Below, piece by piece: positions 59,189 to 63,789 of a stretch of 64,000 nt of DNA. Each line of letters starts with the position of its first letter. Positions within the stretch are counted from its first letter, which is position 1. Under the pieces are notes generated by a model. It had not been told where the DNA came from and ran no database searches. It was given only the letters and a program-made list of their open reading frames with translations. Made by a program: the position numbers and the translations under genes. Origin of the DNA: an uncultured Granulosicoccaceae bacterium (GTDB taxonomy: Bacteria > Pseudomonadota > Gammaproteobacteria > Granulosicoccales > Granulosicoccaceae); assembly GCA_937922015.1 (NCBI GenBank), contig CAKZVB010000073.1:1-64000 (forward strand), written 5' to 3'.

Positions 59189-60715
59189 CTAGTCTCTAAG
59201 CAAACTGTTCGGTGGAATAGTGGCGTGAAGTCTGGTGGATACGTGAATAATGGCGGCAAGTGAATCTGCCTCGGGATTTACTGTCACCAGCCTCACTTCA
59301 GGCGGGCTTGCATTGACCACTATACCAGCGGTCTTTTCGGGATCGGACAGGGTTTTTACTATTGATCGTTCTAATTTGGCCATCTGCGGTGCCATATCAA
59401 TGATGGCGGCCTCGTGGAGTGAGTCCAGAATTCTCTGGTGCAGTACCGTTGAAAATAAAGACCAAAGATCACTGTCTATGATGCGAGTAAACTGCAGATC
59501 TTCGAATCGAAGCTCGTTTGAGTCCGGGTCAGCTACCGGGCGTGCACTCAGGTAGAGATGTCCGGTGGTTTTCAGAAACGTTTTAAAGCCGGTGGTTACA
59601 AATTCGAGATCAAAAATTAAACGGTTGCCGGACGGGTAGAGATCAAAGGAAAGAATTTGAAAATTTTTGCCGTCGGTGCTTTGCACATCACCCAGTACTT
59701 TTTTTGATACCAACTCTTTTATTTGAGAGTAGGGCAGATTAATTAATAAACTAAACTCGACCGCACCAGGATTGGTAACTTTCGGCAGTAAGTCAGGCAG
59801 CACCAGTGAAGTGGTCAGTGACTGCTGTTGAACAATTTCAGTAGTCGCGAACATTTCAAGAGCAACGCTGACATGATCGCTGTGTGCGACGACGTTTGAG
59901 ACAGCTGCCGATTTTGGTATCAATTCGAGGAAGGCTTGCCCCGGTGCTTGATGTGGCGCTTGATTCTGCCCTGGAATTTTTATCGGAAGGTAGTGAATCT
60001 TCCAGCTTGTGGCGACCTGCTGGCGAAATTTTTTACAGTCGATCAGAGAGGAAAATTTCTGTTCCAGTTTGTTCAGCTTTTTGTTCAGCGCTTTGTCGGC
60101 AGATTTTCGCATATTGATTTTTATTTTACCTGCCAATTGAATCCTCGGGTCACTTAGCCAGCGGTACTCCAATTTGCTTTCAATGGCGGGACACCAGTTG
60201 GATTTTATACCGATCCTGATATCAGCTATAAGCTGAAGCTCACCGGTAATATCCTTATTTTGCAGCCCGAGTAGTTTAGCGCTGCGACCATCGACGCCGA
60301 CTTTGCCGGTTAGTGACAATGGAATTGAAACTCTGACTGAATCATTATTTTTTGTCAGTGTTACTTGCCCGGAACGTTTGACCTGGTATTGCCACACCGT
60401 TGTTGCACAGACATTAGCACCTAAAATCCGTTTACAAGTCTGGCGTTCACCGCTGCCGATTTGTGGTTCATCGCTTGCCTGTTCTGCTGCGTGTTGAATG
60501 GTGCGATACGGGATGTTCGCCACCAGGCCCAGCGTACTGTCGACGGCTTCCAGTGATATGTTGGAAAATTGACTCGGTGGCTTAACGGAAAGCTGGCTCT
60601 GTTGATCGGACAGGTGCATGTAGGTGTACCAGAGCGCAACCAGGATCGTGGTGATCGCCGCGATGGCTGAAATCAAATTTATTTTGTTACTTACTGAAAA
60701 CAATTTCTTTATCAA
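59189..60715 (-). CDS. DUF4403 family membrane-anchored protein
   Basis: This 508-residue protein has one N-terminal hydrophobic anchor (INLISAIAAITTILVALWYTYM) and a long beta-rich periplasmic part. The DUF4403 layout is seen in LSVKPPSQFSNISLEAVDSTLGLVANIPYRTIQHAAE at the start of the mature region and in VEFSLLINLPYSQIKELVSKKVLG and IFDLEFVTTGF further on. The fold resembles tubular lipid-binding (TULIP-like or AsmA-like) proteins. Function is not established. It is divergent from the modular repeat protein, 342 bases away. Confidence 0.85.
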   Translation of the reverse strand: MIKKLFSVSNKINLISAIAAITTILVALWYTYMHLSDQQSQLSVKPPSQFSNISLEAVDSTLGLVANIPYRTIQHAAEQASDEPQIGSGERQTCKRILGANVCATTVWQYQVKRSGQVTLTKNNDSVRVSIPLSLTGKVGVDGRSAKLLGLQNKDITGELQLIADIRIGIKSNWCPAIESKLEYRWLSDPRIQLAGKIKINMRKSADKALNKKLNKLEQKFSSLIDCKKFRQQVATSWKIHYLPIKIPGQNQAPHQAPGQAFLELIPKSAAVSNVVAHSDHVSVALEMFATTEIVQQQSLTTSLVLPDLLPKVTNPGAVEFSLLINLPYSQIKELVSKKVLGDVQSTDGKNFQILSFDLYPSGNRLIFDLEFVTTGFKTFLKTTGHLYLSARPVADPDSNELRFEDLQFTRIIDSDLWSLFSTVLHQRILDSLHEAAIIDMAPQMAKLERSIVKTLSDPEKTAGIVVNASPPEVRLVTVNPEADSLAAIIHVSTRLHATIPPNSLLRD

Positions 60716-61057: not shown

Positions 61058-62458
61058 ATGAAAAAAAATCTTATCAAGACAGCTATATTAGGGGCGTTTG
61101 TCAGCGCTGCAAACATCGGTTATGCCGTTGAGGATATGACTTCGGCACTCCCGAACGCCAAGCCCGGTGAGTGTTATGCCAAAGTTGTTATTCCGGCAGA
61201 ATATCGAACTGAAAGTTCTACTGTTGTGGTTAAAGAGGCCAGTGAACAGCTGAAGGTTATTCCTGCCAAGTACGAGTGGACAGAAGAGCGTGTAATGGTT
61301 AGCGAAGCTGGCAGTGAATTGCGTGCAATTCCTGCGACTTTTGGAACCGAAACCCAAACCTATGAAGTATCGCCCGCCTCACAGCAATGGGTGATGGGCA
61401 CAGTCAATAGTAATATCGTTGCCAACCCGGCTATGATTTCGGTTGCAAAGGCTGGCGGTGCTGATCTTGACAATGCCACACCGGGACAGTGTTTTGACGA
61501 ACACTATAAACCGGCAACCTATAAAACAGTTAGTGAGCGAGTACAGGTATCAGAAGCTTCTGAGAAAATTGTCCTGGCACCTGCCAAGTATGAGTGGGTT
61601 GAGCAGCGTATAATGGTTTCACCGGCTTCTCGCAAGCTGGTAGAGGTTCCAGCGGTATTTGAATCTGTTTCCGAGCGGGTCAAGGTCGAAGATGCCAAGA
61701 CCGTATGGAAAAAAGGTCGCGGAAGTGTAGAAAAGATTGATCATTCCAGCGGCGATATCATGTGTCTGGTTGAAGTGCCAGCGGTATACAAAACTCTTAA
61801 TAAGAGGGTTCTAAAGACTGCTGCCAGTACCAAAGTGATGGAAGAGCCAGCACGTTACGAAACTATTCGTGTTCGCAAGTTAGTTACCGATTCGACTGAG
61901 ACTCGTGTCGCAATTCCTGCTCAATTCAAAGATATAACCAAGCGGGTTATGGATTCGGAAGGTAGCTACATGTGGCATAATGCAGCAGAAAACGGTACTC
62001 ACTTCGGCAAACGCACTGGCAATCAGATTTGCCTGCAAGCCACACCGGCGAAGATGGCGTCTGTTTCGCGTCGGGTAGTTAAGACTCCTCCTTCTGTTAA
62101 GAAAATGGAAATCCCTGCAAAGTATGAAACTAAAAAGGTACGTCGTCTGGTTGCTGAAGCACAGGAAATCAGAACTCCGGTTGCAGCGCAAACGAAAACT
62201 GTAACCAAGCGTATTAAGGTTTCTGATGCGCGCCTCGAATGGCGCTCTATTCTGTGTGAGACCAACATGACTGACGGCATGATCCAGCGTGTGCAGCGTG
62301 CCCTGCATTCAGCCGGTTTTGCCCCGGGCCCTATTGACGGTGTCCTGGGCCGGGAGACGATGACAGCAGTAGAGCGTTTCCAGAATGCCCGCGGTCTTGC
62401 AACTGGTGGCTTGACCTACGACACACTCGATAAACTCGGTGTTGATGTAAGAGGTTGA
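61058..62458 (+). CDS. Secreted modular-repeat protein with peptidoglycan-binding domain
   Basis: The ATG at 61058 gives a 466-residue protein with a signal peptide (LIKTAILGAFVSAANIGYA). Residues 39-395 are four modules, each starting at a Cys (39, 145, 236, 325) and ending at a Trp (111, 217, 306, 395), 70-72 residues apart. Each module has three sub-repeats built on a P-A-x-[YF] turn followed by RV or RxV and a small-residue strand (IPAKYEWTEERVMVSEAGSE). A fifth Cys (400) precedes a PG_binding_1 domain (IQRVQRALHSAGFAPGPIDGVLGRETMTAVERFQ). I do not recognise the repeat family; an envelope structural role is likely. Confidence 0.85.
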   Translation: MKKNLIKTAILGAFVSAANIGYAVEDMTSALPNAKPGECYAKVVIPAEYRTESSTVVVKEASEQLKVIPAKYEWTEERVMVSEAGSELRAIPATFGTETQTYEVSPASQQWVMGTVNSNIVANPAMISVAKAGGADLDNATPGQCFDEHYKPATYKTVSERVQVSEASEKIVLAPAKYEWVEQRIMVSPASRKLVEVPAVFESVSERVKVEDAKTVWKKGRGSVEKIDHSSGDIMCLVEVPAVYKTLNKRVLKTAASTKVMEEPARYETIRVRKLVTDSTETRVAIPAQFKDITKRVMDSEGSYMWHNAAENGTHFGKRTGNQICLQATPAKMASVSRRVVKTPPSVKKMEIPAKYETKKVRRLVAEAQEIRTPVAAQTKTVTKRIKVSDARLEWRSILCETNMTDGMIQRVQRALHSAGFAPGPIDGVLGRETMTAVERFQNARGLATGGLTYDTLDKLGVDVRG

Positions 62459-62483
62459 TCCGTCCATCGGAAGACTGACTGAG

Positions 62484-62507
62484 GGGCCGCAATCGCGGCC
62501 CTTTTTT
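62484..62507 (+). terminator. Strong intrinsic terminator
   Basis: GGGCCGC-AATC-GCGGCCC is a perfect 7-bp GC-rich stem with a 4-base loop followed directly by TTTTTT. It ends the transcript of the repeat-protein gene, 26 bases after its stop codon. Confidence 0.9.
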
Positions 62508-62640
62508 GTGACTGTTGTCGTATTGCGCCGTTTCGGGTGGTTCCGCCTTACTGGATTTTCGCGGAACGCTGATATGGCACGCGGACTGCTATCTCTGGTG
62601 CTACTTCGTGTTAAGCGAACAATCAAAGAGCGCGGGACTG

Positions 62641-63789
62641 ATGGATATTTTTATGACAAGGGCTTCAATAAGCCAATTGTGCCGATTGTTGCCAGTTGCA
62701 ACTACCGCGATGGTCTTCAGCTTTTTTTGTTCAGCCATTGTCATCGCAGATCCGATGGTCTCTCCCTTTATTGCGCAATCTGAAGAGTCTGTCTACCCGG
62801 ATAATGCATTGACAGACCCCCCCGTGATAGCAGCGGCCAATGATGATCCAATGGACCGGCTGATGCAGTCCATTGTGACAATTAATGCTACGACATCTGA
62901 TATCGCCCGAACCGCTGCAAATTTCGGTATCGAACGTCAGGGTAGCGGTGTTGTTCTTGATGCAAACGGGCTTATTGTTACGGCCGGCTATACGATTGCA
63001 GAAGCGACATCTGTGACGGTGACATTCTCAAACGGTGTCACTGAGCAGGCGAAGATTGTGGCATTTGATGAAGCAACCGGTCTGGGCCTTGTCAGAACGC
63101 CGGTTGGTATTACCACCACACCGATCAAACTTGGCAAATCAGCGGGTTTGAAATCAGCTCAAAAGCTGATGATTATCCCCGCAACCGGTGAAGCAGATGC
63201 CAAAGGTGTCAAGGTTGGTAAAATTAAAAAATTCACCGGAGGGTGGGAATATATTATCAATGATGCTATTCACACTTATCCTCCCAGTACTTCATTTACC
63301 GGCGCGGCACTGGTATCAGACAACGCAGAATTAGTCGGTATTGGTGCTCTGGTTACCATAGATATTGACATCGATCCGAAAATCAGAATACCGGGTAATA
63401 TATTTGTTCCTGTTGATTCGCTTACCGGTGTGCTGGGTGAGTTAATTGTTAGTGGTCGATCAAACGCCTCAATGAAACCCTGGTTGGGCGTAGATACCAA
63501 ACAAACTAAACAGGGCATTGTTGTTAGATCGGTGGTAGAGGACGGGCCTGCTCAAAAGTCGGGTCTAAAGGCAGGTGACGTTATTGTTGCAGTTGACCAG
63601 GCCAAAGTCTCCAGCCAGACACAGATGTATGAAAAAATCTGGTCTATTTACAAACCGGGAGATCAGGTGCATCTGTTGGTTGTCCGTAACGATCAATTCG
63701 CTAACGTGTCAGTGACCTCAATGGATTATTATGACTGGTTACGAATGGAGCAGGGTTCTGATACTGTTATTACAGAAATGGTTGAATAA
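62641..63789 (+). CDS. HtrA/DegP-like PDZ protein lacking the catalytic triad
   Basis: From ATG 62641 the 382-residue protein has a signal peptide (LLPVATTAMVFSFFCSAIVIA), a chymotrypsin-like domain at about 75-265 and a PDZ domain at 278-355 (WLGVDTKQTKQGIVVRSVVEDGPAQKSGLKAGDVIVAVD). In place of the HtrA His motif TNAHV it has TAGYTI, in place of the Asp motif DLALL it has GLGLVRT, and in place of GNSGGPL it has SFTGAALV. All three catalytic positions are lost while the fold and PDZ domain remain, so it is likely a non-proteolytic chaperone or scaffold. The track start at 62515 overlaps the promoter region. Confidence 0.85.
   Translation: MDIFMTRASISQLCRLLPVATTAMVFSFFCSAIVIADPMVSPFIAQSEESVYPDNALTDPPVIAAANDDPMDRLMQSIVTINATTSDIARTAANFGIERQGSGVVLDANGLIVTAGYTIAEATSVTVTFSNGVTEQAKIVAFDEATGLGLVRTPVGITTTPIKLGKSAGLKSAQKLMIIPATGEADAKGVKVGKIKKFTGGWEYIINDAIHTYPPSTSFTGAALVSDNAELVGIGALVTIDIDIDPKIRIPGNIFVPVDSLTGVLGELIVSGRSNASMKPWLGVDTKQTKQGIVVRSVVEDGPAQKSGLKAGDVIVAVDQAKVSSQTQMYEKIWSIYKPGDQVHLLVVRNDQFANVSVTSMDYYDWLRMEQGSDTVITEMVE

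Follow-up and report, generated by a model that had tools for sequence, protein, structure and literature searches.

The gene at positions 61058–62458 of the window (the whole stretch of 64,000 nucleotides that was analysed) encodes a 466-residue protein, from an ATG at 61058 to a stop ending at 62458. We give about an even chance to the view that it is secreted into the periplasm and anchored on peptidoglycan, where its beta repeats would act as a spacer or tether of tunable length. Its repeat body obeys a law that recurs throughout a family of relatives, and its C-terminus is a PG_binding_1 domain. The gene, its parts and the downstream terminator are as follows.

61058..62458, + strand: whole gene, 466 residues; open reading frame with orthologues at 49–78% identity
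61058..61126, + strand: likely Sec/signal peptidase I signal peptide (...NIGYA/VEDM, cut at the slash) without a lipobox; from sequence and a rule-based scan
61172..61390, + strand: module 1 (A type), Cys39 to Trp111, 72 residues, three 23-residue units
61391..61489, + strand: linker of 33 residues with a helix predicted at 124–132; from DSSP of the model and linker lengths
61490..61708, + strand: module 2 (A type), Cys145 to Trp217, 72 residues
61709..61762, + strand: conserved A-to-B linker, W-KKGRGxxEKIDxxSGDIM-C
61763..61975, + strand: module 3 (B type), Cys236 to Trp306, 70 residues
62030..62242, + strand: module 4 (B type), Cys325 to Trp395, 70 residues
62255..62257, + strand: fifth structural Cys, C400, in the motif W-x3-LCETN
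62282..62437, + strand: PG_binding_1 domain, residues 409–460; profile E-value 1.9e-10 and Foldseek matches of the model
62481..62507, + strand: intrinsic terminator, a 10-bp stem followed by T6; from sequence and folding energy (−19 kcal/mol, z −4.5), absent from the pattern-scan listing

An earlier note on this DNA had described four modules running from a Cys to a Trp at 72, 72, 70 and 70 residues, each with three PA-x-[YF] sub-repeats and about twelve units in all, and a lone fifth Cys leading into PG_binding_1. This description proved exact. The five Cys (residues 39, 145, 236, 325 and 400) and the module-end Trp (111, 217, 306 and 395; two further Trp, 74 and 180, lie within units) give precisely these spans, and C400 precedes the domain at 409–460. 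There are exactly twelve units, ten of which fit the motif and two of which are degenerate (PAKM and AAQT), with PA positions at 46/69/92, 152/175/198, 241/264/287 and 330/353/(376), spaced by exactly 23 residues. The PA-to-Trp distance is 65 in all four modules and the Cys-to-PA distance is 7 in modules 1–2 versus 5 in modules 3–4, which accounts for the difference between 72 and 70. Self-similarity at lags 89, 23, 106 and 46 exceeded that of all 3000 shuffles (z = 11.5, 8.0, 6.6 and 5.5), and when four Cys and six Trp were placed at random, a shared spacing (to within 2) arose in 17 of 100,000 trials. The unit consensus, derived from 528 units of 44 proteins, is PAxYxTVxxRVLVxPAxxxxxxI/V.

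A stronger test than shuffling is to compare relatives. Family members from the collected loci were reduced to 99 clusters (<85% identical), and spans were measured that start at a Cys and end at the last Trp ahead of the following one. Among the 265 spans so obtained, with no selection on the rule, 246 fit either 3+23n or 1+23n, n running from 3 to 10 (72 occurs 90 times, 70 occurs 92 times, 95 occurs 30 times and 93 occurs 32 times), implying that modules gain or lose entire units while their ends stay fixed. In per-protein counts, which were filtered by the rule, 43 of the 99 clusters had the complete set 72, 72, 70, 70, 27 two-module clusters read 95, 93 (23 more in each) and one read 233, 139 (n = 10 and 6). 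The recurrence of 72, 72, 70, 70 in 43 of 99 clusters means that the regularity is neither chance nor peculiar to one gene. Orthologues of the window protein at 49–78% identity retain the pattern, and dN/dS was ~0.1 in the two pairwise comparisons with computable dS, with dS saturated. Tandem paralogues at another locus, L086:6935–9218 (G576), differ in unit number (spans of 233/139 and of 72 or 95/93), end at a Cys and carry no PG domain.

A congener (L166:2–4897, G013:C220) encodes a giant relative of at least 1632 residues whose 5' end is cut by the contig start. Its lobe B holds ~53 units, as the 1299 residues from C101 to W1400, minus a 79-residue insert, equal 1+23×53; a PG-binding domain and a Gly/Ser-rich tail are also present. 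These units share a mean DNA identity of 53% and no identical 69-mers, so they are not DNA copies of one another, which argues against simple duplication or an assembly artefact. So many units in one lobe are difficult to square with a closed domain.

AlphaFold2 predicted the repeats to be all-beta in two models, both of low confidence: one of the full protein (11 sequences; mean pLDDT 71.5, pTM 0.35) and one of a single module (42 sequences; pLDDT 74.7 and pTM 0.33 for the best of five models, ~54 for the other four). In each, strands of 7 residues alternate with strands of 12, and the breaks fall at the PA and xA positions, two residues long. Foldseek searches with either model matched the PG domain alone and returned no match for the repeats; the best-ranked hits for the single module were long beta-hairpin stems with low probability and TM-score, which we did not take as evidence. 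Of the rod of beta-repeats proposed earlier, the beta character is backed by the prediction, and the unit number is open-ended, as expected of a rod; the rod or solenoid fold itself is hypothetical (pTM 0.33–0.35, no Foldseek match for the repeats). We infer an elongated fold.

No match to the modules was found in Pfam, NCBIfam, PHROGs or the PDB, whether sequences or model folds were compared; no solved homologue was found by sequence profile or Foldseek, and no named description of the repeat family was found in the open-access literature searched. The impression that no named family has this pattern was therefore borne out, with no strong match to a characterised domain family in the profile searches and ~390 of the 466 residues matching no curated family. 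Presumably, proteins of this type are annotated somewhere as 'peptidoglycan-binding protein'. An origin from a phage tail or fibre was rejected, as it is chiefly the PG-binding part that matches phage, plasmid and PHROG sequences.

The nearest kinds of repeat are YTV and MORN, and the modules belong to neither when tested on the defining features. YTV repeats (PF07639) occur in exported, Cys-containing proteins recovered from Planctomycetes cell-wall preparations (PMC8567305; PMC10632474) and are reported as restricted to Planctomycetes. Our family is likewise made of repeats in exported, Cys-containing proteins; however, it has one Cys per module rather than being Cys-rich, and it carries a PG-binding domain. 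No YTV profile match was found in 42 modules at E-values up to 10, and the best hits of that profile in the window's genome were below cut-off and away from the family genes. MORN repeats are 23-residue, all-beta tandem units able to form extended rods (PMC7725318). The exact 23-residue period, the tandem arrangement and the all-beta prediction are shared by this family, but the GxG and YEGEW motifs are absent, the turns are PA-x-Y and xA, the predicted strands have 7 and 12 residues instead of two of 6 residues, and no MORN match appeared in the Pfam scans.

When modules of the same protein are compared, ungapped identity is 46% between modules 1 and 2, 48% between modules 3 and 4 and 30–35% across these pairs, giving the order A1 A2 B1 B2; in the two-module form, one A and one B module have four units apiece. 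In an alignment of 42 modules from close relatives, nothing but the Cys, a Tyr, the Trp and the following Cys is invariant. Mean net charge is about −5 for lobe A and about +12 for lobe B, and B is the more positive lobe in 43 of the 44 four-module proteins. The acidic character of lobe A and the basic character of lobe B make contacts between them possible, within or between molecules.

The number of structural Cys is commonly modules + 1 (3 or 5) and hence odd, with two or four modules. The earlier note raised disulfide linking through this odd Cys. However, five clusters (L043, L118, L120, L121 and L136) retain only the first and the last Cys, indicating that odd-Cys disulfide dimers are not a family-wide necessity. 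The disulfide is hypothetical, oxidised Cys are presumed in either arrangement, and a clasp from first to last Cys would be as plausible as a dimer link. Very short PAxY proteins (L084 and L135, from G607 and G736) have CxxC pairs flanking both ends and are possible metal-binding variants.

Such contacts and cross-links might instead build a structural coat, in which copies polymerise by A–B lobe contacts and Cys bridges into a wall layer, as with the Cys-rich YTV proteins of Planctomycetes. Most members do have modules + 1 Cys, the lobes are oppositely charged, giant and short forms exist, most genomes of the genus hold two or more paralogues, and wall preparations are known to contain YTV proteins (PMC8567305). 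We consider a coat improbable even so: one Cys per module junction is far from Cys-rich, the five clusters above have two structural Cys only, and the YTV profile found no match.

The family is present in 36 of the 37 genomes of the window's order, 45 of the 370 sampled genomes of the class (about 12%) and 35 of the 398 sampled genomes of the phylum. The window's genome, a 5.0-Mb draft of 332 contigs, has three copies: the window gene, a paralogue on C271 (56%) and, on C248, a form with two modules. Two tandem family genes with slightly overlapping open reading frames were seen in Polycyclovorans (L018:5932–7846). In G192, two equal-scoring copies in opposite orientation (G192:C1:869754–870260 and 1089062–1089568) each give a read-through match with an internal TGA and are broken or recoded genes.

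A PG_binding-like domain was found in 84 of the 99 clusters, and no enzyme domain was found in the family members scanned. In the window protein the PG_binding_1 match (PF01471, residues 409–460) scores 41.2 bits against a curated cut-off of 23, and the modelled domain matched the SleB N-terminal domain and SltB2/SltB3 in Foldseek. These C-terminal 52 residues resemble SleB, SltB2/SltB3 and other PG_binding_1 proteins in both sequence and fold; in contrast to those, no catalytic domain was found in the window protein. The proposed tethering to the cell wall thus has its domain, well above cut-off, while binding to the wall in vivo is predicted. In other classes of the phylum, the short forms stop at their final Cys or run on into a brief tail, with no PG domain, and wall binding is therefore not a role common to all members; the only named relative found of this kind is on a Methylobacterium bullatum plasmid.

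Two kinds of N-terminus were found, a signal peptidase I type and a lipobox followed by ~50–95 residues that often look coiled-coil-like by eye. A rule-based scan found lipobox-like N-termini in 26 of 74 two- and four-module members; in these, position +2 is S, A, G or K and never D. Under the Lol rule, a residue other than D at +2 directs a lipoprotein to the outer membrane, and about a third of these members are therefore predicted outer-membrane lipoproteins. Up to 26 of the 74 would combine lipobox and PG-binding domain in one chain, a combination absent from the window protein.

Since the lipoprotein members join a lipid anchor, a spacer and the wall, the likeliest role of the family overall is that of tethers or spacers between outer membrane and peptidoglycan. 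In our model of the window protein, Sec export would be followed by attachment to the wall through the C-terminal PG_binding_1 domain. The remainder would consist of twelve beta units of 23 residues, stacked to form two lobes (A1 A2, GRG linker, B1 B2), each module capped by Cys at its start and Trp at its end, with length set by whole units added or removed. In the lipoprotein members, the same body would link the N-terminal lipid anchor and spacer to the wall. Lacking a lipobox, the window protein supplies the wall end only, which weighs against a tether, where lipoprotein members have both ends; the free N-terminal end of this non-lipidated paralogue may bind a partner or another copy. PG_binding_1 domains occur in hydrolases and regulators too, which also weighs against a tether. 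Further points against it are the low confidence of the models, the short forms that have no PG domain and the unstable gene neighbourhood. In its favour are the quantised spans, the giant chain, the strand pattern of both models, the frequent PG_binding-like domain, the charge split between the lobes and the presence in nearly all genomes of the order.

There is a precedent in Pba of P. aeruginosa, a lipoprotein whose PG-binding domain makes it an outer membrane–peptidoglycan tether (PMC7947798). Like Lpp, Pal, the OmpA family and Pba (PA1041), the lipoprotein members join lipid anchor, spacer and PG-binding domain. Unlike these tethers, the family has PG_binding_1 rather than an OmpA-like domain and a beta-repeat spacer instead of a helix or none, and its member in the window is no lipoprotein.

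Exported, repeat-rich proteins of variable length are often adhesins, and a surface-exposed adhesin or ligand-binding protein with an incidental wall anchor might look similar. We regard this as very unlikely, as PG_binding_1 places the protein in the Gram-negative periplasm, the Pfam scan of the window protein found no secretion or autotransporter domain, and the module ends are strongly conserved throughout, unlike fast-evolving surface repeats.

The neighbouring genes bear on another reading, a wall-bound regulator or scaffold whose beta repeats recruit or restrain an envelope enzyme such as the HtrA-like neighbour or peptidoglycan hydrolases, with length incidental. An HtrA-like PDZ protein is indeed encoded beside or near the window gene, the C271 paralogue and one other relative. 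The one in the window (62515–63789, + strand; Trypsin_2 and PDZ) lacks the catalytic His (TAGY rather than a TNNH-type motif) and has Thr at the Ser position (FTGAAL), and is probably a pseudoprotease; the His is likewise missing from its homologues in L014 and near the C271 paralogue (L026). Because of the strong terminator between the two genes, an operon was rejected, and the transcript of 61058–62458 probably ends there, ahead of the HtrA-like gene. Owing to the lost His and this terminator, the neighbour is poor evidence for a regulator. The HtrA-like neighbour is not conserved beyond these loci, and such a role needs no strict length quantisation. Taken together, a regulator or scaffold seems rather unlikely. 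No gene neighbourhood conserved across genera was found, and thus no stable context giving a pathway. Upstream of the window gene lies a divergent DUF4403 gene (59189–60715, − strand), syntenic with UvrD in the genus. Genes around the C271 paralogue (L026:4063–12623) encode the HtrA-like protein, a MotA/TolQ/ExbB-like protein and a coiled-coil protein of 920 residues with an OmpA domain; together they may form an energised envelope system.

For the spacer or tether that we prefer, a more specific form is a molecular ruler: a beta-repeat rod of 3 to about 53 units, not described before, which changes in evolution by complete 23-residue steps only, between constant Cys and Trp caps, and that would set the distance from wall to membrane, possibly as an A-against-B hairpin clasped by the first and last Cys. 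We allow this version a fairly slim chance. The family would be a conserved part of the envelope of which the curated databases searched see only the small PG-binding tail. Its repeat law offers an exact annotation signature, and its members form a natural length series with which the control of periplasm width and of the distance between outer membrane and wall may be probed.
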